The notes beneath the pieces were generated by a model. That model saw only the letters and a program-made list of their open reading frames with translations. It was not told the DNA's origin and did not search any database. A DNA stretch of 64,000 bases from Nannobrachium achirus (Eukaryota; Chordata; Actinopteri; Myctophiformes; Myctophidae): NCBI GenBank assembly GCA_963921795.1, contig OY997654.1:1860367-1924366 (forward strand), written 5' to 3'. The translations under genes and the position numbers were made by a program. Shown here one piece after another: positions 66 through 63,648 of the stretch (position 1 is the first letter of the stretch; the number at the start of each line of letters is the position of its first letter).

Positions 66-307
66 ACAAAGTGGATCTATTCTTTCACCGTGGTGAATAT
101 TGTATGGTTTACATTGATTTCACCCTTGGCTGACATCTCTACATCTCTACTGTATCTTCACGTCTTCAGACATAAAGGAACTACAGTAGGGCTGGCCAAA
201 GATCAAGTTCACATAGTGCGTAGTAAATATTCTATAGAACTTTGGTCCCGCAGGTTATAAAGGTCATGGACATTGCTTGCTTGGTAGATCCACACTATAA
301 AGGATCA

Positions 308-544
308 TATCGTCACTGTCGGGCAGAAACCTCGTATCTCCAAGTTTCAAAATGCGTACGTTCTCTCCCAAAGTAAAGCCCTGCTTCATCATACAAGGCC
401 GTCGCACAAAAGTAGTGAAAACAGCAGATCTACAAGCACACAACGCCGCTTGTAGATCGCCTGTTTCCACTAGTTTAAAACACTTTTAAAATGATAAATA
501 CAAAACGAACGGTTTTGGACATACAAGGTTTCCACCCGACGATA
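308..544 (+). mobile_element. MITE family B, copy 1
   Basis: The left end TATCGTCACTGTCGGGCAGA and the inverted right end (GGTTTCCACCCGACGATA) match the other B copies, so this is a short element with inverted repeats of about 35 bp. The right end lacks three bases of the usual CCCGACAACGACGATA. The internal hairpin near 418-475 is collapsed: the GC-rich centre is mostly deleted. The flanks are compatible with a TA target duplication, as in Tc1/mariner-like MITEs, but the superfamily is not proven. Confidence 0.75.
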
Positions 545-660
545 TGATGTGAACGATAATACCTACCGTCAATGCCTTGTACAGTAGGACCTTTTATAAG
601 TCCCCGTCTCTTGGCATTTATACCTCGGCGATATTAATATTTTCAGAAATGAATCATATA

Positions 661-1228
661 TTAACCCATTCAGGCCTAGGATTATTGAATGCTTTAACTA
701 TTGAAAAATAGCAGATATACAAGCTCACAGCGCGGCACCGAGTGCCGCGCTGCGAGCTTGTAGATCTGCTATTTTTGAAAAAGTCGTGAAAATGTGTGCA
801 AATCTTTGAATATATGTATTTTTAAAGCGAACGTTTGTAACTCAAATTTTGCTTCTGGGTCGTCCCTGGAACTAGATATTTTGAGATGGGGGTCCGTGGC
901 CAAATACATATCATTCTGGGGGTCCTTGAAATGAAAATGTTTGAGAACCACTGACATAGTAGTCTCTCAAGAACAGACTAACTGAGCTCCAGTTATAAGT
1001 GAAAAGGAGCCTTTCTTTGACGATGGCTGGCCAGATTGCTGATATAGAAACATTAAAAGACACTTATAAGAATAGAATAGAATAGAAACTTAAAAGAATT
1101 CAAAAGACACTTATAGAATCGGGTCCAAATAAAAAATGTCAGGATTTATCAAAAATAGCAGATCTACAATGTAGTTAAAGCATAAAATAATACTACACAA
1201 TACTGTGTACCCGTTCTGAATAGCTTAA
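661..1228 (+). mobile_element. MITE family A (piggyBac-like), copy 1
   Basis: TTAA is followed by CCCATTCAGGCCTAGG, and the far end reads CCGTTCTGAATAGC then TTAA (1225-1228). TTAA duplication with CC-starting ends fits piggyBac-like non-autonomous elements. A 75-bp hairpin at about 703-778 carries the AGCAGATATACAAGC arm, a GCGCGGCACCGAGTGCCGCGC centre and the return arm. The second hairpin expected near 1145-1170 has lost its centre and return arm. No transposase coding is present. Confidence 0.8.
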
Positions 1229-2490
1229 CATCCCTGCAAATCAAATGCAAACACCGTCGTGGTACCCCGGCTGAATCCCATCTGTCCTACCTTGGGAGCA
1301 TCTGCCATGGCTTGCAGGGCCGTCCACCTCAGGACGACACAGGGACTTGGGGACATCTGTCCCAACAGATAGAGAACCGGGATAGGGCCATCCATTCTGT
1401 TAACGCTCCACTGAACTCTGTGTTATGTTCACCATAACCCAGCAAGGCCCAGCCATGCTTTTTGGCAACATTTTTTAAATCATTAAAAAAAAAAATTATA
1501 ATTAGTTTTCCTGTTCTTTTTTCACATTAACATCACCATTGAATCCTATTGTTTAGTAATGCAATGCCATTGGCCACGATATTTGCATATAAATACCCCC
1601 CCCCCCCCCCCACAGAGGCTGACATTCACACCTCCCAGAGAAGTTGAAATTCCAGGGCCTGGACGAACAACATCTCACTTTTTCACTGAAGCTATTCCTC
1701 ACAAAAACATAAGTAAAATGCCTGTGATATTTGTTTTGGCGATCATTAGACTGTCTAGAACATGTGCATATGTTATTATTGTGAAAAAAAAATATCCCCA
1801 AAATGCAAATTAGAGCATGATTTATTATTTATGGCTATAAAACCTTACAAAAACATTATTAATTTTTAAACATTACTTATTCCTCTGATTAGGACTCCTA
1901 CAACACCATCTGATTTTTTTTAAAACATTTTTGGCAAGTAGAAATTAATTCGGGTCTTGCAGGGATAATTTGCTTTTGCTTTCTGCAGCATCCCGGAATA
2001 TTGCCTGCTCCGCAGCGGTTACAGACAAAGACGGTCGGTTGTAAATGTGTCCCTTTTCGGCCATTTTCCGAGCAGATAATTTGATAAAGCCCCGGCCGTA
2101 ATGGCTATGCTGCATCCTGATAAATGTGGGTAATATGACAAGCGGAGAGAGGATTTCCCTAACAATTTCTGAAGAGGGGGTTTGTGGCTATTAGGATGAT
2201 TTGATATTTTTTTGGAGAGCGGACATTTGATCCGGCGGGGAATGTACTTTGTTGTCATTCACTGTAAAATATGTTGTGTATTGTTTCTGTTTTCCCCTTC
2301 AGCGCGCACCAGGAGCTTGCGGCTCACCCATGTACAGTATTCTCCATTTCATTTGAAAGGCTTTTTGTGTTAATATTATCGTGGATTGACTGATTGAATT
2401 TGTAGATAAAGTATTTTATTCTGAATTGCTTCTCAAGCCAAGGCTATAAACCCTCGCTTACCATGGGGAAATAGCCTACATAGGCTACTG
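1229..2490. other. Single-copy non-coding stretch with poly-C tract; candidate conserved non-coding DNA
   Basis: No gene or recognised repeat was found. A 16-base C run lies at 1596-1611 and A/T runs near 1483 and 1780. About 1965-2300 is balanced in composition, has no second copy in this window and reads like vertebrate conserved non-coding DNA, but conservation cannot be judged here. Confidence 0.4.
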
Positions 2491-2750
2491 TATCGTCGTT
2501 GTCAGGCAGAAACCTTGTATCTCCAAGTTTCAAATTTGTATGTTTTTTTTTTTTTTGCAAAGTAAAGCCCTGCTTCATCATACAAGGCCGTTGCACAAAG
2601 GTAGTGAAAACAGCCAATCTACAATCACACAACGCCTCGCGTTGTTGTGTGCTTGTAGATCGGCTGTTTTCACTAGTTTAAAATTTTTAAATGATAAATG
2701 CAAAACAAACGGTTTTGGACATACAAGGTTTTCACCCGACAACGACGATA
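2491..2750 (+). mobile_element. MITE family B, copy 2
   Basis: Complete element from TATCGTCGTTGTCAGGCAGA to the inverted ACAACGACGATA end. The interior holds a poly-T expansion (about 2542-2557) and a hairpin at about 2607-2680. The left arm is damaged (CCAATCTACAATC) while the right arm, GCTTGTAGATCGGCTG, is intact. Confidence 0.8.
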
Positions 2751-3480
2751 TGAAGGCTACAGACAAAGCATTACAATAACGTAGCTTATATTGTTTCACA
2801 GAAAAGTAGTTGATTTTCAAGCTTGAGCACTAGCTGTCTGCAGGACACGTAAAGCCCTCTTACGTATTCTTGAAAACAAAATCGGAATAAACTTTCTCGC
2901 GGAATTGACCATGCAGTGACCCAAAAGTGCACTCATCCATCCTTCTCTTGCCTTGCTTTCTTTCAATCTTCTGGGGGCCAAATGTGTCAGCGATTCCTCA
3001 CATGGTAAAAGATGCTATCTGTTCCTTGCCAGTCTATGAGTGACTTGCTGCTTAATCCTCATGAATACATGACTTTGTGTGCATGAATAAATGAAAAAAG
3101 CTTTTCACTGGGTAATTGAGGAGCTGCGCCACTAACAAACAAGGACGCAAATTTTGTAAATTAGATTTTTCATCATCCTTTTTTTTTCTCATCTAGTAGA
3201 CCCATGGTGATCAAATTAAATCATTTACTGAAATCACAATCACAAGTGTGCACTCTTACAACTAGGAATTTTGTAATGAACTCGTTCATTTGTATTGATA
3301 ATGAGCACCTTATTGATTCTGCTTATTGAGCCGGGCTTTTATCGAGCCCTCTATTGAGCATTTTCTAATATTTGGTGGAAAGATATGTGACAACAAATTC
3401 AGAACATAACTGGTATCTTTTTGTATTGGCCAGTTGTTGCGACTGTGAGTTTGTTGCTGACCACAATCTATGAAGATGAC
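2751..3480. other. Single-copy AT-rich non-coding stretch
   Basis: No coding signal and no repeat shared with the rest of the window. The last 190 bases carry ATTGAGC/GCTCAAT-like motifs that recur inverted around 3780-3850. The foldback at 3481-3650 may therefore be the middle of a larger, about 600-bp inverted element. Confidence 0.4.
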
Positions 3481-8066: not shown

Positions 8067-9684
8067 GAGTTAGGTGACACCGGCTCAGTCAGCCAACATG
8101 ATAAATCACCAGGCCAAATTGACATAACATTATATGCCACAGGAGAGACCATCCTTGCAGGAGTTGTAGATGCACACTATATAAGCCATGATAGTTATTG
8201 ACAAAGCACTGAGTTTGAACTAAACCGAGGGCCCGCCGTGACATTGTCCACACTGATCCAGTGTTGCTATAAAAACACTGACTGACATTATATTACTTCA
8301 TCTATAAATCTTTCCATCTTGATGCTGTCAGTGCAGAATGAGAGCCGTATTAAAGAGAATGCAAGCATAATAGAATTAAACCTCAGAGATTCCTCTCTCT
8401 AAACACGCGTGCGTGCGTGTGTGCACGCGCACACGCACGCACGCACACACACACAGTCTGGTCATGTGCTTGTGGTCGAGTGAATTTCCCTGAGACAAAA
8501 CCAAAAGCCATTCCCTTAATTGATACCTGCTCAACCAAAGAGGATAAGGCCGGGGGAAGGCAACTAGACATTTAAGAGTTTAAGCCAAGTTCCTCTGGAA
8601 AAACTGCATAATACTTCTTAATAGGGTTTAAAGGAGGAGGCTCGGGGCAGGTCTGTGAAGTTCCTCCTCTCCGGATTACCATTTCTTAAGCAGCTTCCTC
8701 ACAAACTTCCGAAAGGAACGTTGTACAAGCCACGAAAGACAGAACAAATTGACTTTACCAATTTGGTTATTTTACCAATTTATTCCCTTTCATATTATTT
8801 TCGTGGGATTTACAGAATTCACTCTCCTATCTCCTTCCTTGTGCATTTTGTTATAGTCATTACCCTGACTTATACTGTGTTGTGTGACGGTGTCACATGC
8901 TGGAAATGGCTGATCAACAAGCTCACAACACGCCACGTTTGCGAAGCGTTGTGAGCTTGTAAATCGGCTACTTTTGGCGTACGACAGCGCAACCTACAGT
9001 ACATACACTGGAGTATAAATAACAAAATACTGGATGAGTTTCTTCAGTGCATGAATGACATTGACCGGTTTTTGCCAACTTGGACAGACATTTATTTTGC
9101 GCTGACACATTCTACAATGGCATGCCACACCACAGACATAGTTCATATACCAAAATATGAAAGGGCTGCCATCAGAATATTGCAGAGACAATGTTCTAAA
9201 CTTGATTTATTCTTATTAATGGTGTGGGAATAGAACAATATACACAAAACCCAGTGCTCATGCAAAGGACAATATTTCCTTTTTCTAAAAAACTCCAATA
9301 TTGAGAGACAAAGCATGCAGTCTAGCCCACATTTGTGTCGGGTAAAGGCAAGAGTTCTTTGCAAAGAATGCGAGTGAGTGATCTCTCCATGGACTTCACA
9401 GGCAAATATTAGAGAGGCGTCCCAGTTTATTGTTTCATGTCAAAGACAGAGAGTAAAGCGAATGTAGCAAAGAGGATTGTTCAGTATGAGATGAGTACCT
9501 AGTCCATATTTAATGTGAAGAAAATCAACTATTAAGTAGCAAACAAGTCGGAATAAAGCAACATTCAATTATAATATGCATGGGTTACTGTACATTGTCT
9601 ACAGCCTAGTAATATATTTATGGTGACACTTCCAAAACCACATGGCGCACACGCACGCACGCACGCACACACGCACGCACGCAC
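8067..9684. other. Non-coding stretch with two alternating CA/CG tracts
   Basis: Apart from a module hairpin (8903-8977), it holds purine-pyrimidine alternating tracts at 8403-8455 (ACACGCGTGCGTGCGTGT...) and 9649-9684 (GCAC repeats), both able in principle to adopt Z-DNA. The remainder is single-copy with no exon-like frame. Confidence 0.45.
8903..8977. repeat. Module hairpin outside any recognised element
   Basis: The left arm ATGGCTGATCAACAAGCTCACAACACG and right arm CGTTGTGAGCTTGTAAATCGGCTA belong to the palindromic module, with a CCACGTTTGCGAAG centre. No flanking element termini could be assigned, so it may be a free copy or part of a family with a single copy here. Confidence 0.65.
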
Positions 9685-10213
9685 CAGTGGCGTCAGTTCA
9701 GCAAAAGCTAGGGTATGGCAAAGATGGGAGTCCTCATGGAAAAGAGGCATTACATTTTGTATAACACAGTTCTATTGTGAAAATAGCAGATCTACAGCGC
9801 GAGGCGTTGTGAGCATGTAGATCTGCTATTTTCACAATGTCTGAAAAAAACGAGTTTTGTCAGTTTTTTACACAGGTTTCTACGGTTGTTTAAGTGCAGC
9901 TAAACTTGGCATATTAATAAACGTGCCTCATGAATTGCACCTGTGCAGCTGACCTACAGAACCTGGGAATATCCCATTTTGTCAAGATGGGGAGAATAAA
10001 AGTGTGGAGAATACAATTATTATACTTGTTAAAGTGACCATTTTGTAAAATTTTGCATTTGTAGTTATTTTATTGTAATTTAACAACATAATAACCATCA
10101 CAGATACACAAAGAGACATTCATGGATTTATATTTAAAAGTAACTTTTATTTCCCCCCCTGGACCCAGGGTATGGCAGCTGCATACCCCTGCCATACCCA
10201 ATTGACGCCCCTG
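9685..10213 (+). mobile_element. hAT-like family D, copy 2, carrying a C-type hairpin
   Basis: Ends CAGTGGCGTCAGTTCAG and CAATTGACGCCCCTG. It is inserted in a GCAC/CA tract, so the 8-bp duplication cannot be judged. The left third differs from other D copies and matches family C instead: CATTACATTTTGTATAACAC, TTCTATTGTGAAAATAGC and a hairpin with GAGCATGTAGATCTGC (about 9776-9836). D7 has the same arrangement. Confidence 0.8.
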
Positions 10214-14097: not shown

Positions 14098-14674
14098 GAT
14101 AACCCATTTAGGCCCTAGGATTATTGAATGCTTTAACCAGTGGAAAAATAGCAGATATACAAGCTCGCAGCGCGGCACCGAGTGCCGCGCTGCGAGCTTG
14201 TAGATCTGCTATTTTTGAAAAAGTCGTGAAAATGTGTGCAAATCTTTGAATATATGTGTTTTCAAAGCGAACGTTTGTAACTCAAATTTTGCTTCTGTGG
14301 GGGTCCCTGGAACTAAATGTTTTGAGATGGGGGGTCCGTGGCCAAATACATATAATTTTGGGGGTCCTTCACATGAAAAAGTTTGAGAACCAGTAGTCTC
14401 TCAAGTGAAAAGGACCTTTTCTTTGACGATGGCCGGCCAGATTGCTGACATAGAAACATAGGTTTTTCCAAAAACCTTAGAAGGATTCAAAAGACACTTC
14501 GGTTCAATCGGTTCAAAATTCTAACGTTCACGATTTTTCAAAAATAGCAGATCTACAAGCTCGCAGCGCGGCATCGGTGCCGCGCTGTGAGCTTGTATAT
14601 CTGCTATTTTTCAACAGTTAAAGCATGAAATAATGATACACAATAATTTGTGTACCCGTTCTGAATGGGATAAA
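14098..14674 (+). mobile_element. MITE family A, copy 2, with ATAA flanks
   Basis: Typical A structure: CCCATTTAGGC left end, hairpins at about 14143-14220 and 14537-14617, right end CCGTTCTGAATGGG. The 4-mer at both ends is ATAA rather than TTAA (GATAACCC...GGGATAA), a direct repeat that fits insertion at a non-canonical target. Confidence 0.82.
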
Positions 14675-15158
14675 ATGCACGAGGCAGCAGGGCGAGAGGG
14701 AGCCATTTGCCGAGTTGACAGATTCCATCATGGATGACTTTAGCGTACCTGAGTGCTTGCTGCTCTTTCGCTGCCTTTCCGCGTGCCCTCTGCGAGTGAG
14801 AGGAGGTGATGAATCAGTGCTTTATGGGCCTTCAAGATGCCAGAGAGGCCAATCTGTGCGAAGGGCTGTTAAAATCCAACATAACTTGACCAGGCCCTTT
14901 TAACAAGCTCTAAGGCGTAGTACACCCACGGAACAGACTGCACATTTGTATCTTTCTCTAACGGACTTGAGCCTGATAAGCTGCCTGCTGAATAACAAAC
15001 TTGGTTGCAGATGCAGCTTGAGCTTACAGTGTGGAGCAGATATTTCTCTCAATGATTGAGTTCATGCTCCGCCCTGGCTCTTTGCCATTGGTGCTTCCAC
15101 GTGGTGGATGAACAATCGCCTATGATCCCAGGTTCAATTACGGAGGGCTCAACCAATG
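14675..15158. other. Single-copy non-coding stretch; candidate conserved DNA
   Basis: No repeat or gene recognised. A 62-codon plus-strand frame begins at 14715, but no homology or splice context supports an exon. Confidence 0.35.
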
Positions 15159-15166: not shown

Positions 15167-15750
15167 TAGGGCTGGGAAATATGGACAATAGTTTGTACCC
15201 ATTATACCTCAAAATCGCTATTGTGACGATAATATTGCATTGTGATAATATATATTTTCTTTTACATTCTTCAAATGTTTCAAAAGAGACGATGCGATGT
15301 GTTGTGAGCTTCTGCTATTTTTCTTATTTTAGAAAGTTATTAAAACCAGGAAAGGACAACACTCATGCCGATAATAATCATATCCCAAATATCAGATATT
15401 ATCTACACCAGTGGTTCTCAACCTTTTCAGGCCGCGACACCCAAAATAATCATATTTTCACCGGGGACCCAAAAGTTGAGACATTACATTTTGTATAGCA
15501 CGGTTCTATTGTGAAAATAGCAGATCTACATGCTCACAATGCCTTGCGTTTGCGAGGCGTTGTGAGCATGTAGATCAGCTATTTTCACAATTTCTGTCTC
15601 TAATATTTTACACTTTGGCCAATGTTTAATTTAATGTTTAATGTTTCACATTAAGCTAATCATCTGGGAACCCCCCAAAAATAATATGGAGACCCCCCTG
15701 GGGGTCCCGACCCACAGGTTGAGAACCACTGATCTACACTATCAGCCCTA
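15167..15750. mobile_element. hAT-like element X containing C1
   Basis: Starts TAGGGCTGGGAAATATG and ends ATCAGCCCTA. Flanking 8-mers TTCAGCTG (15159-15166) and TTCAGCTA (15751-15758) match at seven of eight positions. Element C1 is inserted in its right part with its own exact duplication, so X is the older of the two. Confidence 0.82.
15409..15731 (+). mobile_element. hAT-like family C, copy 1, exact 8-bp TSD
   Basis: CAGTGGTTCTCAACCTTTTC at the left and GGTTGAGAACCACTG at the right, flanked by ATCTACAC at 15401-15408 and 15732-15739. The central hairpin (about 15505-15594) has stem TTGTGAAAATAGCAGATC, then ACATGCTCACAATGCC, a CTTGCGTTTGCGAG centre and the return strand. The stem extends outward to TTGTG on both sides. 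Confidence 0.9.
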
Positions 15751-25168: not shown

Positions 25169-25379
25169 TATATCCACCTCTTTCCGCGGGAGTTTGCTGG
25201 AGGCGACTGGAGATTATTTGGACCACACTTCCGGCTTAACAGCAGACATACAAGCTCACGTCACGTCGCAGATGCAGCCTGTTGTGAGCTTGTAAATCAC
25301 ACTCGGCTAGGGCGCCGGAAGCTCGGTACAGCATCTGCGCAATGCATTATGGGGCGTTGGAAACTCGTGGATATATTTA
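25169..25379. mobile_element. Short inverted-repeat element family S, copy 1
   Basis: Matches 56429-56622: TATCCACCTCTTTCCGCGGG at the left, AACTCGTGGATA at the right, with CTTCCGGC/GCCGGAAG paired inside. The centre contains a diverged module hairpin (CAGACATACAAGCTCACGTC and TTGTGAGCTTGTAAATCAC). Superfamily unknown. Confidence 0.65.
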
Positions 25380-26068: not shown

Positions 26069-26077
26069 ACAGTCGCA

Positions 26078-26578
26078 CAGGGGCGTCAATTGGGTATGGC
26101 ATGGGTATGCAGCTCGTTCCAGGGGGGAAATAAAAGTTACTTTTAAATATGAATCCACGAATGTCTCTTTGTCTACTGTGCTGGTTATTATGTTGTTAAA
26201 TTACAGTAAAATAACTACAAATGCAAAATGTCACAACATGATCACTTTAACAAGGTATTATAATTATATTCTCCACACTTGTATTCTCCCCAGCTTGACA
26301 TAATGGTATATTCCCAGGTTCCGCAGGTCAGCTGCACAGGTGCAATGCATTATTGTTAATTGTGTCACTTTTACTAACATGCCAAGTTTAGCTGCACTTG
26401 AACAACCGTTCCAGGCTGCCATATCCAGCCCAAGAAACCGTAGAAACAGGGGAAAAAAATAAAATGTACTTCTTAAAATAAATGTATCATGCCTGTTGCT
26501 AAGGTATGGCAACATGACTGGTGTCTTGACACCAGTCATGTTGCCATACCTTAGCTTTTTTCTGAACTGACGCCACTG
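26078..26578 (-). mobile_element. hAT-like family D, copy 3
   Basis: Inverted copy: CAGGGGCGTCAATTGGGTAT at the left, GAACTGACGCCACTG at the right. ACAGTCGCA directly abuts both ends (26069-26077 and 26579-26587), which includes the expected 8-bp duplication. The D-specific palindrome GACTGGTGTCTTGACACCAGTC lies near the right end. Confidence 0.88.
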
Positions 26579-26587
26579 ACAGTCGCA

Positions 26588-31601: not shown

Positions 31602-31810
31602 TTGAATGCTTGCTTTCACGTGCTAATGCTTTGGTAGCTTCATGGGAAGAAAAAAAAAACAATACTTTGCTCTGTGTAAGCAGTCATGCAGTGTTATTTC
31701 TAGCTAATTTGAATGTATTTATTTCAACTTCAATAATTGATGCAGAATCCATGGATCATTCTTTTCACGAGGAGAGAAGACAGCATCCTTTTTAATGTTG
31801 TTATTTCCCA

Positions 31811-35094: not shown

Positions 35095-35509
35095 CAGTGG
35101 TTCTCAACCTTTTCAGGCCACGACCCCTAAAATAATCACATTTTAACTGGGGACCCCCAACCCTGACGAGCACTAAGACTTGAGGCATTACATTTTGTAT
35201 AACATGGTTCTATTGTGAAAATAGCATGCTCACAACGCCTCGCAACGCGAGGCGTTGTGAGCATGTAGATCGGCTATTTTCACAATTTCTGCCTCTAATA
35301 TTTGACAATTTGGCCAATGTTTAATTTGTCAGTTTAGTGGTATTAAAAAGTCCTTAAATTGACACTTTAGAAATGTGCAGAAACCCTCTATACACTTTAA
35401 CATTATGTTGGTTTGTTTACTGTTGAGTGAGAAAACAATGTTGCACATTAAGCTAATCATCTGGGGACCCCCCAAAATAATTTGGGGACCCCCCTGGGGG
35501 TCCCGACCC
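35095..35509 (+). mobile_element. hAT-like family C, copy 2, right end missing
   Basis: Begins CAGTGGTTCTCAACCTTTTC and keeps the C body (CATTACATTTTGTATAACAT, TTCTATTGTGAAAATAGC) and a hairpin at about 35215-35285. An extra segment of about 100 bp (35340-35440) is absent from C1. The sequence stops at GGGGGTCCCGACCCA, where C1 would continue into GGTTGAGAACCACTG. Confidence 0.75.
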
Positions 35510-36704
35510 ATCTGAAAACGAAAGCTATTTGATGCAACGCGTTCCGTGCTCGTGTAAACATATGATCCAGCGGATCTTCCTCGCAGGCGCTCGGAGATGA
35601 CATCTTGACAAATACATAGAGAAGCAGACAAAAGCTGAACCACCCCAAAGTGGTGGGGTGGGAGGGAGGTTCTTTGGGGAGAGAAAAAATAATTTAATTT
35701 TCTATTGAGAGGTGACACACTTTGCAGCCAATTCAATATCAGACCTATGTTTTGTCACATCGTTTGGCCCTCCTTGCTTGACACTTCTGGGTTGGATAGC
35801 TGCCTATTACAGCTCACCATTGCCATGTCTCACATGAATTCACATGAAGACATTCTCACACTCAGAAAGACATTTTCGCTCCATTATTCCCATCGTGGGC
35901 AGACAGACGGCTATAGGTGAGAGAGAGAGAGAGAAAGAGGGGGGGAGCAGAATATGGTCTGATGGCATCACTGTAATTACATGTACGTCGCAAATTGTCC
36001 CTCATTGATCGCGTATAAGTGTGGGCGAATGTCACATTTTTGAATGGCAGCCTAACTGACGTTATTTTCGTGGGACGGCGAGGGGAAAAAGGTTCTCAAC
36101 AAGCGTTCATCTTATCCGACGATCTGGTTTGACTTTTAGGAACCCCTCTGCGAGGAAACATTTGATTGCAGGGGGAGGGGGAGGGTGCGGGGGGAGGGGA
36201 GCAAGGGCATCACAACATGGCAAGATAAGCCCCGCGCGGAAGCTGACTTTGAAAAGCACTTCTTCAGTCACAAGGTATAACCCTTTGTACTTAGATTTTT
36301 CCTACTGATTTCAGCTCCCGACCCGGGCTGTGTGTTACAGACGACAGGCGCGCGGGGCGGGGGTATGAGGGCTGAATGTCATAAATCAACATTAACCATC
36401 AGCTCGGAGCTATTGACTGATGATTCACCGCGGCTGCATCTCCTCAAGACTCTGAAATGAAAATGCAGCGGCAGCGCCGGGGAGAGAGCGCCCCGCGCTT
36501 GATTGGCACCTTGTCGAGTCTGGCGGGGGAGCTTTTTGATTGCACTCACTGTCAATATTAGTTAATTGTTTTCTTTCCATACATGGCACCCTCTGTTTCT
36601 TCAACATCACAGCGAAATCCCGAGTGTTCATTCAATCCACAATGGACCTGTAAGGGTCAGTTTTTACATGCCCAAGAGTTAAATTAACTCTCCACGTTTT
36701 ACTG
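35510..36704. other. Single-copy stretch, GC-rich in part; candidate conserved non-coding DNA
   Basis: A GA-rich patch lies at 35919-35947 and a G-rich block at 36171-36200. The segment 36240-36660 has balanced composition, alternating AT- and GC-rich blocks and no repeats, a profile often seen in regulatory vertebrate sequence. No exon could be argued. Confidence 0.35.
36171..36200 (+). promoter_or_regulatory. Potential G-quadruplex sequence
   Basis: Five runs of three to six G separated by one to three bases (GGGGGAGGGGGAGGGTGC then GGGGGGAGGGG). This meets the G3+N1-7 rule on the plus strand. Function is unknown. Confidence 0.7.
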
Positions 36705-37672: not shown

Positions 37673-38190
37673 CAGGGACATGCTGGGCCCCTGATTCAGC
37701 CCAGGAAAAAGAGTTGTAGAGGCCCTCATTGCGCGCTATAGAGAGAGCGCTGCTGCTACTCAAAGATTTGCCGTTTCAGATCATGACAAGTGACAAGCCA
37801 GTGGGCCAGTTACATGAGTTATATTCCGTCGTTGTTGGGTGGAAACCTTGTATGTCCAAAACTGTTTGTTTTGTATTTATCATTTAAAAAAATGATTTAA
37901 ACTAGTGAAAACAGCCGATCTACAAGCACACAACGCCTCGCGGTGCGAGGCGTTGTGTGCTTGTAGATCTGCTGTTTTCACTACTTTTGTGCGACGGCCT
38001 TGTATGATGAAGCAGGGCTTTGCTTTGCGAGAAATTTTTGAAACTTGGAGATGCAAGGTTTCTGCCCGACAGTGACGATTTACTTTTTTGGCCGCCCAGC
38101 CCCCAAAATGGAATGAAGGCCATCATTTTATTTGAATTGTTTTCCTAATGGCCGGCCTGGACTGGCCGGGAATGAACCGTTCAAGGCCGT
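37673..38190 (-). mobile_element. hAT-like family J, copy 1, truncated on the right
   Basis: CAGGGACATGCTGGGCCCCT at the left, then the J body (GCGCGCTATAGAGAGAGCGC, GACAAGCCAGTGGGCC), element B7, and GGCCGCCCAGCCCCCAAAAT. The outer part of the opposite end seen in J2 and J3 (CCAATGGCCAGCACGTCCCTG in this orientation) is missing. Confidence 0.78.
37824..38080 (-). mobile_element. Element B inside J1 (B7)
   Basis: From CCGTCGTTGTTGGGTGGAAA to GCCCGACAGTGACGAT. The hairpin at about 37905-37985 is intact with a CGCCTCGCGGTGCGAGGCG centre. B lies at the same place in J2 and J3. Confidence 0.85.
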
Positions 38191-38620
38191 TCAACTGGTG
38201 TGTATGGATGGACAGACAGTGAAGTTGATTTCAGACTAGTGTTGATTTAGCACATTTTCAATTTAGTTTAGTCATATTCTATCCACATTTTGTCATCTGA
38301 AATGTTTGTTTTTTTAGTTGACTAAATATAAGATTTTTGTCGACTAAATCTACAGTTGATTTCGTCGACGAGAATCTATTTTGGCAGGCCTTGATGGTGT
38401 CGTAATGGCTGATTTTACACTTGGTTGCATTCTGAAAATATAGCCGATCTACAAGCTCACAATGTGACGTGTTAGATCTGCTATTGCAACACCCGAGCGC
38501 AACCAAGTATAAAATGACTTGTCTTTTAGTTCTACTGGATCTCGTCTCCACTAGTCCCTCCCTGATATTTTGGTCTAGTTTTCAATTTTATCAATATGGT
38601 TTAATCTTCATAGCTTAGGG

Positions 38621-39013
38621 CAGTGTTTCTCAACCTTTTTTTCTGCATGGGCACACTTTTCATGTCACAAGAATCCATGGGCACACCAACATAATACGGG
38701 GGTGTAAATATCGTCACTGTCGGGAAGAAACCTTGTATCTCCAAGTTTCAAATTTGTATGTTTCTTCGCAAAGTAAAGCCCTGCTTCATCATACACGGCT
38801 GTCGCACAACAGTAGTGAAAACAGCAGATCTACGAGCACACAACGCCTCGCACCGCGAGGCGTTGTGTGCTTGTAGATCGGCTGTTTTGACTAGTTTAAA
38901 TCATTTTTAAAATGATAAATACAATACTGGCTTTCAAGCAGTTTCAAGGGGCACACTTGACCCTTCTCAGGGGCACACCAAAGGTCCCCAGGCACAGTGG
39001 TTGAGAAACACTG
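38621..39013 (+). mobile_element. hAT-like element L, exact 8-bp TSD, nested in Q
   Basis: CAGTGTTTCTCAACCTTTTT to GGTTGAGAAACACTG, flanked by GCTTAGGG at 38613-38620 and 39014-39021. GGGCACAC motifs flank the inner B8 on both sides. Confidence 0.92.
38709..38927 (+). mobile_element. Element B inside L (B8), right end missing
   Basis: Begins TATCGTCACTGTCGGGAAGA, contains a complete hairpin (about 38815-38890) and stops in AAAATGATAAATACAATA, so the right inverted repeat is lost. Confidence 0.8.
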
Positions 39014-44516: not shown

Positions 44517-45007
44517 CAGGGACGTGCTGGCCATTGGGAAAAACGGGACAACTCCCGAACGGCCGGTTCATTCCCGAGCCGGTCCAGGCCTTCGTTCCAT
44601 TTTGGGGGCTGGGCGGCCAACAAAGTAAATCGTCACTGTCGGGCAGAAACCTCATATCTCCCAAGTTTCAAATTTGTACATTGTTTCGCAAAGCAAAGCC
44701 CTGCTTCATCATACAAGGCCATCGCACAAAAGTAGTGAAAACAGCAGATCTACAAGTGCTTGTAGATCGGCTGTTTTCACTAGTTTAAATCATTTTTAAA
44801 ATGGTTTTGTACATACAAGGTTTCCACCCGACAATGACAAAATATAACTCATGTAATTGGCCCACTGGCTTGTCACTTGTCATGATCTGAAATGACAAAT
44901 CTTTGAGTAGCAGCAGCGCTATAGAGAGAGATCTCTCTCTATAGCGCGCAATGAGGGCCTCTACAACTCTTTTTCCCGGGCTGAATCAGGGGCCCAGCAT
45001 GTCCCTG
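44517..45007 (+). mobile_element. hAT-like family J, copy 2
   Basis: CAGGGACGTGCTGGCCATTG to GGGGCCCAGCATGTCCCTG. Flanks AAACACCC (44509-44516) and AAACACAC (45008-45015) match at seven of eight positions. It contains B10 and the AGAGAGAGATCTCTCTCT palindrome. Confidence 0.87.
44627..44841 (+). mobile_element. Element B inside J2 (B10)
   Basis: ATCGTCACTGTCGGGCAGAA to CCACCCGACAATGACA. The hairpin (about 44737-44785) has lost its centre, leaving GATCTACAAGTGCTTGTAGATC. Confidence 0.82.
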
Positions 45008-45416: not shown

Positions 45417-45759
45417 TGCTCTGTTGCAAGTGAAAGTCCGGAATTCAAAATGTACTTGAGTAAAAGTACAAAAGTATTGACATCAAAAATGTACTTAAAG
45501 TACCAAAAGTAGAAAGTACTCAATATGCGGAATGTCCCATTTCAAGTTTTCAAATGTATACACATATTTTGAAAATAGCAGATCTAAAAGGTCACAATAT
45601 GTCGCATTGCGACACATTGTGAGCTTGTAGATCTGCTATTTTTTTTCAAATGGATGAAATGTATATAGGGCTGAAGTTGTTAATGTAGGTTTTGTAATAA
45701 TGACACAAATCTACAAAGTAACTAGTAACTAAAGTTTTCAAATACATTTGGTGGAGTAA

Positions 45760-45998
45760 AGCTGGTTGCACACTCACTGCTGTGTTTTTTCTTTGCGAAA
45801 TGCGTTTTTCAGGACAAGAAGAAAGAGAGAGAGATAGAGAGCAAGGGACCCAGTGGTCCGAAAATGAATACGAAACGGTTGGCAGTGTGCAAACGTGATT
45901 GACATAGCGTGAGGTTGATTTCTTTATTTACGTGCTCTGAAATTCGCTCCTATATTCGGGCCAAAAAAATACAGCAGTGTGCAACGACCTTGAAAGTA
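45760..45998. mobile_element. Small inverted-repeat insertion R in E3
   Basis: GCTGGTTGCACACTCACTGC near the left and ACAGCAGTGTGCAACGACC at the right are inverted. The E sequence GGAGTAAA...GTAC resumes on either side. A short AAA or TAAA duplication is possible. Superfamily unclear. Confidence 0.6.
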
Positions 45999-46162
45999 CA
46001 ATATTTGGATGTAGCGGAGTAGAAGTAAAAGTATTGGAAATTGGAAATGCTCAAGTAGAGTACAAATAACTCAAAAGTGTACTTAAGTACGGTACTTAAG
46101 TAAATGTACTTGTCACTTTACACCACTGCAAGGCTCCTCGCCGTGATGTGGGTGTTTGTGAG

Positions 46163-46579
46163 CAGGGGCGTCACAAGGGGGGGAAAAGTGGGACTGAGTT
46201 TCTAGGGCCCAAGGTGGAGGGGCCTTAATTATTGTATACTTTAGCCATTAAAAAATAGCAGATATACAAGTAGATCTGGTATTTAAGCGAACATTTGTAA
46301 CTTAAATATTTTGAGATGGGGGTCCGTGGCCAAATACTTATCATTTTGGGCATCCTTTATATGAAAAAGTTTGAGCACCACTGACATAGAAACATATTTT
46401 TTTTTCAAAAAACCTTTGAAGGATTTGAAATATTCAAAGACTTCAAAGCACATAATAATGTGAAATAATGCGTTCCCAGTCTAAATGGGTTAAACCCCCT
46501 CGCCCTTTGAAGAACGTTCATGGGGGGCCCTGCAGTGAATCCCTGTACCCAGGGCCCAGGATTTGGCGTGACGCCCCTG
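46163..46579 (+). mobile_element. hAT-like family I, copy 1
   Basis: CAGGGGCGTCACAAGG to GGCGTGACGCCCCTG. Flanks TTTGTGAG and TGTGTGAG match at seven of eight. The interior is decayed A-type core, with only a stub of a hairpin (about 46253-46275). It also keeps CTAAATGGGTTAA, an A-type terminus, inside the I ends. Confidence 0.82.
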
Positions 46580-46824: not shown

Positions 46825-47860
46825 CAGGGGCGGAAAGTAACTGAGTACATTTACTTAAGTACTGTACTTGAGTAACATTTTGAGGTATTTGAGTATTTCC
46901 AATTTCTTTTACTTCTACTCCACTACATCTCGGATCCAAATATAGTACTTTTACTCCACAACATTTATTTGAAACCTTTAGTTACTAGTTACTTTGCAGA
47001 TATAAATTATAATATTAGACCTACCTACAACTACCTACTTACACTTTTTGAAAATAGACGATCTACAAGCTCACAGAGCGTCGCATCGCGATGCGTTGTG
47101 AGCTTGTAGATCTGCTGTTTTCAAACATTTGTATTTTTACCTTTGGTTGCGACCGTCAGGTCGCAGTTCCTATCAAAACCTCCACCAGCTGTCCGTCATT
47201 CACACGTCACACTTTTGCCCTGCTCATATCTCCGCAACCGTTGCCCCGATCCATGCAAACTTTTGCACACACACTCCTTGCCTGCCAAACCACCACCCAT
47301 CAATTCTCACATGGCCCTCTTCTAGCGCCACCATGAGGCCGATTCTTGCAAAACACATTTTTGGACACTGCTCCTACAAATTTTGCCCTAAAATCACGCA
47401 AATCGGTACACACTTGCTCTACACTCATGTCATCAACATGGATCTGTCCCATTTAGCGCCACCTTCAGGCCCATTTCTTAAAACACATTTTTGGACACTG
47501 CTCCCACAGATTTTGCCCTAAAATCCCGCAAATCGCTACACAGTATGTCTACACTCATCTCATCAACATGGATCTGTCCCATATAGCGCCACCGTCAGGC
47601 CAATTATTTCAAATACATTTTTAGACACTGCTCCTACACATTTTGCCCTAAAATCACGCTGCGACCTGCCGGTCGCTTATCTCCCGACTAGGGAGTCTTA
47701 CTGGTAATTTAAGTACATTTTGATGCCAATACTTTCTTTCGTACTTTTAATCACGTACATTTTGAATTCTGGTACTTTTACTTGTGTAACAGAGTGTTTC
47801 TATATTGCAGTATTGATACTTTCACTTGAGTACAAAATGCGAGTACTTTTTTCACCACCG
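46825..47860. mobile_element. hAT-like family E, copy 4, with Helitron-like G2
   Basis: CAGGGGCGGAAAGTAACTGA to TTTTTTCACCACCG. Flanks CCTGTGGC (46817-46824) and CCTGTGGG (47861-47868) match at seven of eight. A hairpin at about 47046-47125 (TTTGAAAATAGACGATCTAC and return; centre GTCGCATCGCGATGCG). G2 is inserted just to its right. Confidence 0.87.
47147..47704 (+). mobile_element. Helitron/Helentron-like family G, copy 2
   Basis: Starts TTGCGACCGTCAGGTCGCAG and ends GCGACCTGCCGGTCGC, then CTCCCGACTAGGGAG and TCTTACTGG. The middle has three tandem units of about 125 bp (AAAACACATTTTTGGACACT, TAGCGCCACC). The E copies show the uninterrupted TTTTGGTAC site, so no target bases were duplicated. 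Confidence 0.6.
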
Positions 47861-49002: not shown

Positions 49003-49500
49003 CAGGGACGTGCTGGCCATTGGGAAAAGTGGGACAACTCCCGAACTGCCGGTTCATTCCCGGCCGGTCCATGCCGGCCATTAGGACAAAAATAAAAATG
49101 AAATGTCGACCTTCGTTCCATTTTGGGGGCTGGGCGGCCAACAAAGTAAATCGTCACTGTCGGGCAGAAACCTTGTATCTCCAAGTTTCAAATTTGTGGA
49201 TTTTTTCGCAAAGCAAAGCCCTGCTTCATCATACAAGGCCGTCGCACAAAAGTAGTGAAAACAGCAGATCTACAAGCACACAACGCCTCGCACCGCGAGA
49301 GTTTAAATCATTTTTAAAATGGTAAATACAAAACAAACATAACTCATGTAATTGGCCCACTGGCTTGTCACTTGTCATGATCTGAAATGGCAAATCTTTG
49401 AGTAGCAGCAGCGCTAGAGAGAGATCTCTCTCTATAGCGCGCAATGAGGGCCTCTCCAACTCTTTTTCCCGGGCTGAATCAGGGGCCCAGCATGTCCCTG
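49003..49500 (+). mobile_element. hAT-like family J, copy 3
   Basis: CAGGGACGTGCTGGCCATTG to GGGGCCCAGCATGTCCCTG. Flanks GGCTCTTT (48995-49002) and GGCACTTT (49501-49508) match at seven of eight. Contains B12. Confidence 0.87.
49149..49345 (+). mobile_element. Element B inside J3 (B12), partly deleted
   Basis: Starts ATCGTCACTGTCGGGCAGAA, keeps the left hairpin arm and centre (AACGCCTCGCACCGCGAG), then jumps to GTTTAAATCATTTTTAAAAT and ends near AAAACAAACATAACTC. The return arm and right terminus are lost. Confidence 0.8.
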
Positions 49501-49669
49501 GGCACTTTTATTTGTTGCTGCTTTTTTTTTTTAAGCCATTTCACAACCGGGGGTCCTTGGCATTGGAAAGGTTTGGAAACCCTTGGTCTGGTCTACAAGC
49601 GTTTTTGTGCTTCTGCTTTAGAAACTGGGGTCCTTTAAAAAAAAAGAAAAAAAAAAAACATAGTGACAC

Positions 49670-50084
49670 TAGGGCTGTCACGATTATGACATTTTACATT
49701 AATTGTCACTCAAATAATTGCGATTAGCGATTTAATTGTGGTTTTGTCGTTGACAACTACATTTCTGTTTGGCTTGTAAGGCTTTGAAGTTGCATATGGC
49801 AGATATGACACATAATCTATATACAAAGAAATTAAGGACATATTTGACAACTTTACACTTTAAAAAGAACATCGGTAGTGGAAATAGTCGATCTACAAGC
49901 TCACAACGTGTCGCATCGCAACGCGTTGTGAGCTTGTAGATCTGCTATTTCCACAATTTTTTAAATGTTTGAACATAAATAAACATTTTTCAACATGTAA
50001 ACGATTATGATGATTATCGCAAAATAATTGTGATCATGTCAAATAATTGCGATTAGACTATTATGTAATAATTGTGACCCCCCA
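49670..50084. mobile_element. hAT-like element BB with module hairpin
   Basis: TAGGGCTGTCACGATTATGA to ATTGTGACCCCCCA. Flanks AGTGACAC (49662-49669) and GGTGACAC (50085-50092) match at seven of eight. ATAATTGCGATTAG repeats lie at both ends. The hairpin (about 49873-49960) has stem GTGGAAATAGTCGATCTACA and centre TGTCGCATCGCAACG. Confidence 0.87.
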
Positions 50085-52679: not shown

Positions 52680-52939
52680 GACTCGTGCGCATTCCCGGCA
52701 TTCGAGGGTTATCAGTTGAAAGATGGACTACACCAATGCCTTTGTATCCCCTCCCTATCTGCCCGAGCATGGAGGCAATAACAGTAATGTACGGCTAAGC
52801 AAAAACAGAGCTAATCATCAATGACTGCAAGATATATAGCATATGCAGTGGCACCTTGTTTATTACCCGCTTTTCTCCTCCTGCAGAATCCATCGGCCGC
52901 GCAGCAGACACTCTGTCAGATGGAGGGACTCCTTCAATG

Positions 52940-53557
52940 TTAATCCATTCAGAACGGGTACACTGTATTGTGTATCATTATTTTATGCTTTAACAATTGA
53001 AAAACAGCAGATATACAAGCTCACAGCGCGGCACCGAGTGCCGCGCTGCGAGCTTGTAGATCTGCTATTTTTGAAAACTTGTGGAAATTAGAATTTTTAC
53101 CCGATTCTATAAGTGTCTTTTGAATCCTTCTAAGGTTTTTAGAAAACCCTATGTTTTCTACGTCAGCGATCTGGCCAGCCATCGTCAAAGAAAAGGCCCT
53201 TTTCGCTTAACTGGAGCTCAGTTAGTCTGGTCTTGAGGGACTGCTATGTCAGTGGTTCTCAAACCTTTTCATGTGAAGGACCCCCAAAATGATATTTATT
53301 TGGCCACGGACCCCCATCACAAAATATCTAGTTCCAGGGACCACCCCCAGAAGCAAAATTTGAGTTACAAACGTTCGCTTTAAAAAATACATATTCAAAG
53401 ATTTGCACACATTTTTTTCACAACTTTTTCAAAAATAGCAGATCTACAAGCTTGCACTCGGTGCCGCGCTGTGAGCTTATATATCTGCTATTTTTTACAA
53501 TAGTTAAAGCATAAAATAACGATACTCCATAATGTGTACCCGTTCTGAATGGGTTAA
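52940..53557 (-). mobile_element. MITE family A, copy 8
   Basis: TTAA then TCCATTCAGAACGGG; right end CCGTTCTGAATGGG then TTAA (53554-53557). Hairpins at about 52995-53075 (intact) and 53435-53500 (left arm shortened: CAAGCTTGCACTCGGTGCCG). Both termini are the GAACGGG type, unlike most copies. Confidence 0.85.
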
Positions 53558-53824
53558 TTTGATTCATTCTTGTTTTCCATAATAATTGGGGGCAATGGGT
53601 CAGCGTGATGAATTTGCTTGTTACATGACCCGGGGAGTAGCGTTAGCGGAGCACTTGGCTGGCATACGGTTTCATCTCAGCATCTCCACTTGTGTGGAAG
53701 GAGGACTTCATTTATTATTTTCTCCAGCCCGCGGTTTGAAAAACATATCCGTTCGTTCCTGGGCCATACAGTTCAGTGTGCAACGGAGAGGGCTTGTTTA
53801 CCGTTTGCGTCACAGCAGCGAAGG

Positions 53825-54276
53825 CAGTGGTCTTCAACAGGGAGTCCGGGACCCCTAGGGGGTCCTCAGAGTTACTACAGGGGGTCCTCCAAATCTTTGT
53901 GTGATAGAAACCTTTTTTTCTTATTTTTTATATTAACCACTTGAACTCTAACATCCATATTCTGAGAACTTTAGCCAAAAATAGTAGATCTACAAGCCCA
54001 CAACGCCTCGCGCTGCGAGGCGTTGTGAGCTTGTAGATCGGCTATTTTCGGCAAAGAGGTTTGGTGTAGAGGGGATAAAGAGCAGACTAAGTACAAGTAA
54101 TGGCGGTTCAAGTGGTACATGTCTGAAAATACGAATTGACATGAATCCAAAATGCACTGATGATTGTGCTGTCAAACGATGAAACTATATGGAATCTATA
54201 AAAAGGTTGTGGGGGTCCCTGCTTCATCTCTCTCTCAACTATGGGGTCCTTGGCCTGAAAACATTGAAGACCCCTG
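53825..54276 (+). mobile_element. hAT-like element M with module hairpin
   Basis: CAGTGGTCTTCAACAGGGAG to ATTGAAGACCCCTG, with GGGGGTCC motifs inside both ends. Flanks AGCGAAGG and AGCTAATG share six of eight bases. The hairpin (about 53970-54055) has stem GCCAAAAATAGTAGATCTAC and centre CGCCTCGCGCTGCGAGGCG. Confidence 0.8.
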
Positions 54277-56692: not shown

Positions 56693-57097
56693 CAGGCAAG
56701 TGCACACACAGACACCAAAGGGGGCTTGAGCCCCTGCCCTTTTATCTGTCTGTAAAAAAGTGCCCTCTCCAGATATGAATGCAGTTTTTACTATGGTGAA
56801 AGAAATGCAAATGCCCCTCTTTCCATGCCATACCTGAAGGTCTCTCCTGAACTTGAATGCAGCATCTTATGTTGAACAAATTACCCTCTGTGTGTAGAAA
56901 TCCATGCCGTTACGCCACATCTCCAGTATTGACTTGATAAATGCTTAGTTCAGTGTGGTGTCAAGCACCGAAAATATTGAAAATAGCAGACCTCCAAGCT
57001 CAGTGAGCTTGGAGGTCTGCTATTTTCAATATTTTCACCAAAAGGCCCTTTTAGAAATGTCAGCCCCTGCCTCTCTAACGCTCTCTGCACGTCCCTG
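56693..57097 (-). mobile_element. hAT-like family N, copy 2
   Basis: CAGGCAAGTGCACAC to CTCTCTGCACGTCCCTG. Flanks CTGTGCAC (56685-56692) and CTGCGCAC (57098-57105) match at seven of eight. The hairpin (about 56975-57035) has stem AATATTGAAAATAGCAGACC and a very short centre. It provides the empty site for the G insertion in N1. Confidence 0.87.
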
Positions 57098-57776: not shown

Positions 57777-58391
57777 CTAGCCCATTTAGAACGGGTACCC
57801 ATTATTGCGTATCGTTATTTCATGCTTTAACCATTGAAAAATAGCAGATCTACAAGCTCACAGCACGGCACCGAGTGCCGCGCTGCGAGCTTGTAGATCT
57901 GCTATTTTTGAAAAATCGTGAGAATTAGAATTTTGACCCCGATTCTATAAGTGTCTTTTGAATCCTTCTAATGTTTTTTTGAAAAACCCATGTTTCTATG
58001 TCAGCAATCTGGCCAGCCATCGTCAAAGAAAAGGTCCTTTTCACTTAAATGGAGCTCAGTTAGTCTGTGAGTCTACTGAGTGAGACTACTATGTCAGTGG
58101 GTCTCAAACCTTTTCATGTGAAGCACCCCCGAATTGATATTTATTTGGCCACGGACCCCCATCTCAAAATATTTTGTTCCAGGGACCACCCCCAGAAGCA
58201 AAATTTGAGTTACAAACGTTCGCTTTAAAAAAATATATATATTAAAAGATTTGCACACATTTTCACGACTTTTTCAAAAATAGCAGATCTACAAGCTCGC
58301 AGCGCGGCACTCGGTGCCGCGCTGTGAGCTTGTAGATCTGCTATTTTTCAATAGCTAAAGCATTCAATAATTCTAGGCCTAAATAGGCTAG
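57777..58391 (-). mobile_element. MITE family A, copy 9, with CTAG flanks
   Basis: CCCATTTAGAACGGGTACC at the left, TTCTAGGCCTAAATAGG at the right. The 4-mer at both borders is CTAG (57777-57780 and 58388-58391), not TTAA. Both hairpins are intact (about 57830-57912 and 58275-58355). Confidence 0.83.
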
Positions 58392-60204: not shown

Positions 60205-60386
60205 AAAAATGTGTTTTGCTAAAATCGCCCTGATGGTGGCGCTAAATGGGAAAGATGGATCATTGTTGATGACATGAGTCTAGACATACTGTGTACCGCT
60301 TTGTGTGATTTTAGGGCACAATCTGTATAGGAGCAGTGTTCAAAAATGTGTTTCGCAAGAATCGGCCTCATGGTGGCGCTAGAAGA
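60205..60386 (-). mobile_element. Fragment of Helitron-like family G (tandem core)
   Basis: One and a half of the 125-bp units seen in G1 and G2 (AAATGTGTTTTGC, TGATGGTGGCGCT, GTGTGATTTTAGGGCA). Neither terminus is present. Confidence 0.7.
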
Positions 60387-61878: not shown

Positions 61879-61886
61879 CATTTTAC

Positions 61887-62429
61887 CAGTGGCGTCAATT
61901 CAGCAAAAGCTAGGGTATGGCAAAGATGGGAGTCCTCATGGAAAAGAGGCATTACATTTTGTATAACGCAGTTCTATTGTGAAAATAGCAGATCTACATG
62001 CTCACAACGCCTCGCACTGCGAGGCGTTGTGAGCATGTAGATCGGCTTTTACACAGGTTTCTATGGTTTCTTGGGCTGGATATGGCAGCCTGGAACGGTT
62101 GTTCAAGTGCAGCTAAACTTAGCATGTTAGTAAATGTGCCACAATTACCAATAATGCATTGCACCTGTGCAGCTGACCATGCGGAACCTGGGAATATACC
62201 ATTTTGTCAAGCTGGGAAGAATACAAGTCTGGAGAATATAATCATAATACCTTGTTAAAGTGACCATTTTGCATTTGTAGTTATTTTACTGTAATTCAAC
62301 AACATAATAACCAGCTCAGGTAGACAAAAAGACATTCATGGATTTATATTTAAAAGTAACTTTTATTTTCCCCCCTGTACACAGGGTATGGCAGCTGCAT
62401 ACCCCTGCCATACCCAATTGACACCCCTG
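61887..62429 (+). mobile_element. hAT-like family D, copy 7, exact TSD, carrying a C-type hairpin
   Basis: CAGTGGCGTCAATTCAGC to CAATTGACACCCCTG, flanked by CATTTTAC at 61879-61886 and 62430-62437. The left third is the C-like block with a hairpin (about 61975-62048; ACATGCTCACAACGCCTCGC arm), as in D2. The return arm is cut short (GATCGGCTTTTACACAGG). Confidence 0.92.
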
Positions 62430-62437
62430 CATTTTAC

Positions 62438-63068
62438 AGTTTTCTAAGCTACAGTAAATCCTTAAGTAGCCCGTGTCAATTGTTACTGTGTGTATGTCAG
62501 GGCCGGGGAATAATGTGCCATCCTGATGGTTGAGCAATGATTTTAATGTCCTAGATGCATGCAATTATCCCTTTAATTAGCAATAATGAGTTTGCGCATG
62601 CTAACATAATGAGTGGAATCATGACATGCGTGCAGGCCTTAATGTGTAGCTCATTAAGATGTAACTACCTCTGTCAATAATACAATCAGCTATCATGGTA
62701 AATATCCCTAACCATTGTAATGAAGGCAATCTCTAATAGTGTGGCAAGAAATCTGTCCGTCTGTCTGTCTGTCTTTCTGTGTTACATTTGCATTATTGAA
62801 TTTCAAGTTGATCATAGAAAACAGATGGAATGCCCACTGCCGTAAGAAGAAAAAAAAAGATGATACCGAGATGCAAATAACAAAGTCAACATTGCAGATA
62901 TTGCATTACGGAGAAAAGAAAGGGCACTACCTCTTGGGATTCAGTCATGCTATGCCTATGATCTTTTAAATCATATCAGCAACCTTTATTCCAAAGTCAA
63001 ACTTATTGTCGTGATAGTATCTTTGCCAGAGAGTTCCGCTATAACTTCCTATTGTAGCATCAGCATTA
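62438..63068. other. Single-copy stretch; candidate conserved non-coding DNA
   Basis: 62530-62720 has dense TTTAATTAGC, AATAATGAG, GCGCATGCTAAC and CTCATTAAG motifs without repeats, resembling homeodomain-rich enhancers. A short (CTGT)n patch is at 62756-62775. Confidence 0.35.
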
Positions 63069-63076
63069 ATGTAGAG

Positions 63077-63648
63077 CAGGGGTTTTCAAAGTGGGTGACG
63101 GGGCACCCTGGGGTGCCGCGACGGCAGTTCAGGGGTGGCCGCGAGATAATGCGATAATATTTGGAATTCATTTGGACACTTGAACAAATATTGAGTGTCA
63201 TTTTAAACTTGGAAGTACAAAGTTATTTTCAGTCAGTTCTAACCAATAAATGGCTATTATCTCAACATTTTCCTCGCAACATAATCACTCAAATATCGTC
63301 GCTGTCGGGCAGAAACCTCGTATCTCCAAGTTTCAAATGTGTACGTCTTTTGGTAAAGCAAAGCCCTGCTTCATCATACAAGACCGTCGCACAAAACTAG
63401 TGAAAACAGCCGATCTACAAGCACACAACGTGTGCTTGTAGATCTGCTGTTTTCAATAGGTTAGTACATTTTATAGATGATAAATACAAAACGAACGGTT
63501 TTGGACATACTTAAGGTTTCCACCCGACAACGGCGATATGCTATAAATATAAGGTGCTGGGAGTGAAAATTATAATGTAGGGGTGCCTCGGATTAAAACA
63601 ATATATATTTATGGGGTGCTCTGAGACAAACATGTTTGGGAACCCCTG
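63077..63648 (+). mobile_element. hAT-like family F, copy 3, exact TSD
   Basis: CAGGGGTTTTCAAAGTGGGT to TGTTTGGGAACCCCTG, flanked by ATGTAGAG at 63069-63076 and 63649-63656. Contains B14 at the family-specific position. Confidence 0.92.
63294..63538 (+). mobile_element. Element B inside F3 (B14)
   Basis: TATCGTCGCTGTCGGGCAGA to CACCCGACAACGGCGATA. The hairpin (about 63400-63460) lacks its GC-rich centre, leaving CAAGCACACAACGTGTGCTTG. Confidence 0.85.

Follow-up and report, generated by a model that had tools for sequence, protein, structure and literature searches.

A single near-perfect palindrome, here called the module, recurs along a 64,000-nucleotide stretch of the genome of the myctophid fish Nannobrachium achirus (assembly GCA_963921795.1, contig OY997654.1, positions 1,860,367 to 1,924,366 of the forward strand; hereafter the window), where it sits inside miniature inverted-repeat transposable elements (MITEs) of three insertion types. 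Our analyses indicate that it is probably a passenger, relayed between MITE families by nested insertion, trimming and co-amplification. By this explanation, a MITE carrying the palindrome would have used its own transposase to enter another MITE, the carrier nested there would then have lost part or all of its ends, the resulting composite may have been multiplied by the transposase of its new host family, and repeated rounds would have relayed the palindrome across TTAA-, TA- and hAT-type families. The older carriers (families B, C, E, F, G and H) may have received it in the same way, and fold-back, arm-templated repair would keep the arms matched within families. An initial annotation of the window had proposed a hitchhiking palindrome; the three insertion types agree with that proposal and the transfer step is traceable for several families, but what inserts appears to be a whole carrier MITE, which is then trimmed and co-amplified.

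The module is both strongly structured and extremely abundant. Its arm (AGCAGATCTACAAGC) matched the window 88 times at up to two mismatches, counting both strands, against 0.09 matches expected (100 dinucleotide shuffles, maximum 1), and arm matches grouped into 53 hairpin loci (up to three mismatches, 150-bp grouping) or 54 (80-bp grouping), in line with the 50-55 copies first counted. When intact, it is ~70-90 bp long, with arms of ~32-43 bp and a short loop; aligned copies read as a general arm of approximately GAAAATAGCMGATCTACAAGCTCACAACGCSTCGC, the loop and the inverse arm. Predicted folds of 18 representatives ranged from -28.7 to -73.3 kcal/mol, most being a single long stem with a 3-4-nt loop and some having internal loops. 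An inverted-repeat scan of the window returned 37 strong palindromes, 30 of which were the module (35225-35265 and 61991-62043 in addition to 28 that were flagged automatically), and none in three Markov controls of the same scan. A transfer RNA scan and Rfam 15 at gathering score yielded no match in the window, and a 20-mer had no exact match in viral contigs.

Across the whole genome (1,658,514,493 bp, 564 contigs), the exact 15-mer arm occurred 230,123 times (114,999 forward and 115,124 reverse), and the reversed 15-mer, used as a control in a whole-genome search, did not occur. At 33 exact arms, compared with ~9 predicted from the genome average, the window is ~3.7 times denser. A genome sample (twenty 10-kb stretches at chosen positions on 18 large contigs; 184,574 called bases) held 50 module loci at up to two mismatches, which scales roughly to 450,000 genome-wide; because the sample was short of exact arms (17, against ~26 predicted from the genome count), the total may be nearer 700,000 loci, again a rough figure. 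Shortening, through loss of part of the centre, affected 31 of 72 unselected hairpins in which both outer arms were present (up to 5 of the 31 may be chance matches). Symmetric trimming of the hairpin tip was considered and is not claimed, as an excess of paired arms over a deletion null appeared only at the strictest cut-offs (41% versus 42% in the null at pairing of at least 0.8; 18% versus 16% at 0.9; 8 of 61 shortened hairpins versus 4.8% at 0.95; and 4 of 61 versus 2.4% at 1.0, with ~6 of the 61 looking like chance matches). At one fetched locus (L006:598-737), about six tandem 25-bp units (CTTACAGCTTGTAGATCTGCTGTGA) contain a hairpin half-arm, and the module may have seeded this small satellite.

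As first annotated, the module lies in elements of TTAA type (family A), TA type (family B) and hAT type (approximately ten families). For most families, the original count of a dozen or more draws on a small number of window copies, as A and B together account for 37 of the 54 window loci in a loose sort by signature. In that sort, a class termed m6 was inflated by a generic arm string, and only the counts for A, B and loci without a family were used; family counts from loose-linkage clustering of flanks, which merged unrelated families, were not used. Family A (TTAACCCATT ends) carries two hairpins, one near each end and in inverted orientation; family B elements are short, have TCGTC...GACGA ends and one central hairpin, and are bordered by TA in several aligned copies. 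Elements of both families in the window are as follows.

660..1228, element A, subterminal hairpins at both ends (full at 704-776, remnant at 1157) and a TTAACCCATT end
14100..14680, element A, with hairpins at 14144-14216 and at 14540-14611
31810..32420, element A, with hairpins at 31860-31920 and at 32285-32357
52937..53560, element A, TTAA at either end, with hairpins at 53000-53072 and at 53437-53489
53250 to the second hairpin of the 52937..53560 element, hAT-like end CAGTGGTTCTCAAACC inside A
57778..58390, element A, hairpins 57837-57909 and 58276-58348
305..543, plus strand, TA-type B, central hairpin 423-462 with its centre deleted
2491..2752, plus strand, TA-type B, hairpin 2602-2675
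37827..38101, minus strand, TA-type B, hairpin 37903-37983, with a CAGGGACGTGCTGG hAT junction

The hAT terminal sequence CAGTGGTTCTCAAACC is also present in the A copies at 28600, 31337, 32064 and 48315; its partner end was not seen.

Evidence for relay comes from composites, in which one carrier lies within another MITE. A junction search covered the window and 48 of the 138 fetched loci (L001-L028 and L079-L098; 28 of the 48 had been chosen for holding an arm), with matches covering at least 85% of the query. B was found in three hAT hosts, each time with the same junction at several loci (CAGGGACGTGCTGG, 4 loci; CAGGGGTTCCCAAA, 5 loci; CAGTGTTTCTCAAC, 5 loci); the body of A was found in hAT CAGGGGCGTCAC at 5 loci, one of them weak (35/42); a block of hAT family D was found in family I at 2 loci; and D was found in hAT TAGGGCATTCAC at 1 junction in this search, with further copies among the fetched loci of family T. 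Exact 8-bp duplications surround composites both in the window (TAGTAGAC, ATGTAGAG and GCTTAGGG) and among the fetched loci (L015, CATAGCTG; L021, GTCTAGGT; L026, TGTGTATC). Because the junctions recur and several composites have exact duplications, the composites have multiplied as units. In a check for host copies lacking the carrier, 3 of 17 host-end matches had no hairpin within 450 bp (L024, L023 and window 43483), but L024 lies at the end of its stretch, and the other two contain a B junction. The window holds the following composites.

30190..30747, B (hairpin 30478-30566) in hAT CAGGGGTTTATAAA/CAGGGGTTCCCAAA, 8-bp duplication TAGTAGAC
63077..63648, same family as 30190..30747, duplication ATGTAGAG, hairpin 63401-63455
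38621..39013, B (hairpin 38813-38893) in hAT CAGTGTTTCTCAAC, duplication GCTTAGGG
44517..45007, B (hairpin 44733-44782, centre deleted) in hAT CAGGGACGTGCTGG, flanks AAACACCC/AAACACAC with one mismatch
49003..49500, same family as 44517..45007, flanks GGCTCTTT/GGCACTTT with one mismatch, half hairpin at 49263
46163..46579, A body with a hairpin remnant in hAT CAGGGGCGTCACAA, flanks TTTGTGAG/TGTGTGAG with one mismatch, junction at 5 loci

Further transfers can be followed through family D, for which the relevant window elements are these.

15409..15731, hAT family D (CAGTGGTTCTCAAC), duplication ATCTACAC, hairpin 15508-15591
35095..35510, hAT family D, hairpin core 35225-35275
61887..62429, hAT family I with a D block, duplication CATTTTAC, hairpin 61987-62047
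9683..10213, hAT family I with the same D block as the 61887..62429 copy, hairpin 9785-9827
26076..26581, minus strand, hAT family I without the module, own perfect palindrome 26498-26555

The right half of T is identical to a D half in 88 of 108 columns (z = 29.8), the D-type end GAGAACCCCTG being retained, and at its left side a TAGTCGA hAT sequence begins; from these alignments we infer that T is a nested, left-truncated D inside another hAT, now present in many copies. D also resembles the hAT terminus that lies within A (identical in 53 of 71 columns, z = 10.4, the match being limited to the outer ~67 bp), and this D-like end reads toward one of the A hairpins, which, with the A body in hAT CAGGGGCGTCAC, suggests a chain from a D-like hAT to the TTAA element A and on to hAT CAGGGGCGTCAC. 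In family I, the module is present in two copies, where 22 of 22 bases beside it match D (z = 8.6), and absent from four nearly full copies (26076, 27320, 40970 and 43870; 5293 and 4521 are fragments), which instead have ~100 bp of sequence native to I. The module in I is a replacement, through template switching or through nesting plus loss. One of these module-less copies (26076) has a perfect palindrome of its own (27-bp arms) in the region where others carry the module.

These relationships qualify the original statement that the hosts share no ends: ends and target sites do differ, but some families are not independent, I sharing the D block and the A body in hAT CAGGGGCGTCAC being a nested composite. 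They also bear on whether all families derive from one ancestral element by ordinary divergence. Such descent would account for the relatedness of D, T and the hAT end inside A, but the families have three target-site types and different ends, and D halves show no similarity to E (z = -0.4) and weak similarity to F (z = 3.5), so that common descent is highly improbable.

Among the hAT-type hosts, most have matching 8-bp flanks in at least one copy: D (ATCTACAC in the window and AAATAAAC at L020), I (CATTTTAC), T (L011, TTATGTAG), F (L015, CTCTATAG and CTCAAAAG), m6 (L012, ACCTCTGT) and C (L026, with one mismatch), together with the four hAT hosts of the composites. E, G, H, W and K have their own flanks, mostly in at least two copies, and no confirmed duplication. 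Two copies had been described as free of any host. For the one at 54832, the sequence to its left matches an end of family G, the family at 38442 (score 24, maximum 18 in 300 shuffles), and this copy is probably, judging from the match, a remnant of G; the other, at 8903/8908, was assigned to no family, and neither were 2 of the 50 loci of the genome sample in the loose sort. The remaining hosts and copies in the window are listed here.

45431..46127, hAT family C with AGTACTT-rich ends and a nested insertion, hairpin 45572-45642
46836..47794, hAT family C, likewise holding a nested insertion, hairpin 47056-47116
49666..50070, hAT-like family E (AGGGCTGTCACGATTA), hairpin 49878-49954, no confirmed target duplication
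53821..54260, hAT-like family F (CAGTGGTCTTCAAC), hairpin 53978-54048
56693..57097, hAT CAGGGACGTGCAGA with the m6 module version, perfect palindrome 56970-57036, flanks CTGTGCAC/CTGCGCAC matching weakly
25241..25300, plus strand, family H with an asymmetric module version, second copy from 56489
38386..38540, family G (CTGATTTTACACTTGGTTGC ends), hairpin at 38442
8901..8978, module copy with no host family recognised

We also considered how the two arms of the hairpin stay alike. Consensus arms agree at 32 of 34 positions within A (29 hairpins) and at 33 of 34 within B (10 hairpins), and 7 of the 10 positions at which A and B differ have changed in both arms. In one m6 copy (window 56985), AAAATATT and its inverse occupy the two sides of the stem, and another (L012:7391) has ATCG and CGAT; from their sequences, it looks as if each had copied a different flank. 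We infer that the matching of the arms comes from fold-back, arm-templated repair, with selection for pairing a less likely cause. As a separate observation, in a family F copy (L007:1501 region) the right half resembles a diverged inverted copy of the left half, as though fold-back at the hairpin had let one half template the other.

Another possibility is that the palindrome is kept because it aids MITE transposition or escape from silencing, families that acquired it being favoured whatever the route of acquisition; the initial annotation had likewise named repeated capture of a beneficial module as its alternative to hitchhiking. Arms in A and B that stay paired while their sequence diverges would suit this, as would the palindrome that some I copies have of their own where others carry the module, the placement of one hairpin near each end of A, and the concentration of repeated bases near hairpins in the genome sample (33.5% within 350 bp, versus 16.3% expected, an excess that is partly built in). 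Against it, the shortened hairpins described above mean that many copies persist in a degraded state, and family I amplified without the module; we regard such a benefit as doubtful. A related suggestion, which we put forward only tentatively and think unlikely to be right, is that the palindrome serves MITEs as an exchangeable part, either boosting transposition or protecting the element, and passes between families through fold-back or template-switch repair at palindromes. If true, unrelated MITEs would converge on the same hairpin, and the D block in I would be one such swap.

A different possibility is that the palindrome is itself mobile, either as an ~80-bp element or as an excised single-strand hairpin, and inserts into MITEs, in favour of which a single core sequence recurs between differing flanks across many families. 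This was addressed with an empty-site test, in which host flanks were joined without the hairpin and the genome was searched for copies spanning the join. For T, a first round gave exact flank joins at three loci (L029, L031 and L034), but an ATT repeat stands on both sides of the gap, and deletion between the repeats would give the same join. A second round, on a supposed pre-insertion T subfamily, comprised 20 loci (L119-L138; 19 spanning the join and 1 split), in which junction forms varied (some pairs, such as L121 and L122, being alike), at least 7 copies kept pieces of the stem and one belonging to that subfamily (L138) retained the whole left arm. The empty-site model for T, at first favoured by the exact joins, was weakened by these varied junctions and by the D-like right half, and was set aside. 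For C, the 20 loci fetched showed varied deletions with short direct repeats (for example, TATTT in L102 and L112). For F, 2 of the 20 loci fetched (L059 and L065) shared the same exact join, TTTGCC/GGC, and the other 18 had varied deletions or bore the hairpin. In the T, C and F alignments, no target duplication was seen at the base of the palindrome, and their hairpin-less copies included no clean empty site common to a whole subfamily. Hairpin-less copies of these three families mostly look like deletion products, and we consider independent mobility of the palindrome quite improbable, though less so for the oldest events and for F, whose second exact join raises its odds slightly.

Several observations weigh against relay by nested insertion. 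The right half of D matches the left half of T at 24 of 31 positions (z = 2.5), which is under the shuffle maximum, and the duplication belonging to the nested element is no longer present in T. In I, the module took the place of existing sequence, an outcome not produced by simple nesting. Families B, C, E, F, G, H, m6, W and K showed no relay step, and their hairpins may have come by another route. Concerted changes in the arms were about as frequent as others across seven family consensuses (58 versus 55; four of these consensuses were built from 1-4 hairpins, and D/T/I and m6 entered the count in both orientations), and among single copies they were outnumbered by one-arm changes (88 versus 309). 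Finally, the loose scan for ends and duplications also matched controls (12 of 60 in one run, 16 of 54 in another), and at a strict cut-off 7 of ~54 window hairpins passed, versus 5 of 80 control positions; because controls match too, each hAT case rests on matching hAT ends as well.

The window also contains palindromes unrelated to the module: an AT-rich perfect palindrome at 55821-55916 (46-bp arms, 4-nt loop) and perfect palindromes at 27087-27144 and 59887-59943 (27- and 25-bp arms). An inverted pair at 12782-12944 (77-bp arms, 3 mismatches) lies within a hAT family C copy, and a tandem repeat at 40158-40425, rich in CCTAACCC/CCTAAACC, resembles an interstitial telomere-like repeat.

Marking many MITE families across 1.66 Gb through its ~230,000 exact arms, the module can serve to trace how transposon families of three insertion types have nested serially in one another. 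It is also well suited to testing whether hAT-type MITEs amplify better with an internal hairpin. More practically, repeat annotation based on common internal sequence could merge unrelated families in this genome.

The module's 15-mer string had no occurrence across 5.39 million papers, and, judged by titles and the beginnings of abstracts, no report was found of a palindrome common to unrelated MITE families. Several known systems share some of its features. MADE1 of primates is a minimal palindromic MITE of ~80 bp, with two arms of ~37 bp and TA target duplications of its own; the module is like it in size and in its palindromic arms, but has no target duplication at its base in our alignments. 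Mobile palindromes of mitochondria, namely GC clusters and hairpin elements, likewise comprise many short copies whose structure is argued to be constrained and which merge and shuffle (PMC4478555); they reside in an organelle, have an AG target site and are argued to be mobile on evidence from populations, whereas the module is nuclear and carried by MITEs. The V domain of a short interspersed nuclear element (SINE) carried by MER6 is a foreign module riding the burst of a DNA transposon (PMC6887750), with one module in one carrier family, rather than one palindrome in many carriers. The closest precedent found, with a likeness by description only, is Angel of teleosts, described as having long inverted repeats, high copy number and the ability to form a stem-loop (PMC3636048), and as a palindromic element documented inside the hAT transposon Tol2 (PMC8151067). 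Like the module, Angel is thus a palindrome residing in a hAT, and its presence inside Tol2 poses the same question of whether internal hairpins aid amplification. Angel is treated as a transposon family in its own right, whereas the module is an ~80-bp palindrome common to many families; what is unusual here is that one palindrome occurs in carriers of three insertion types, with several of its transfers traceable.

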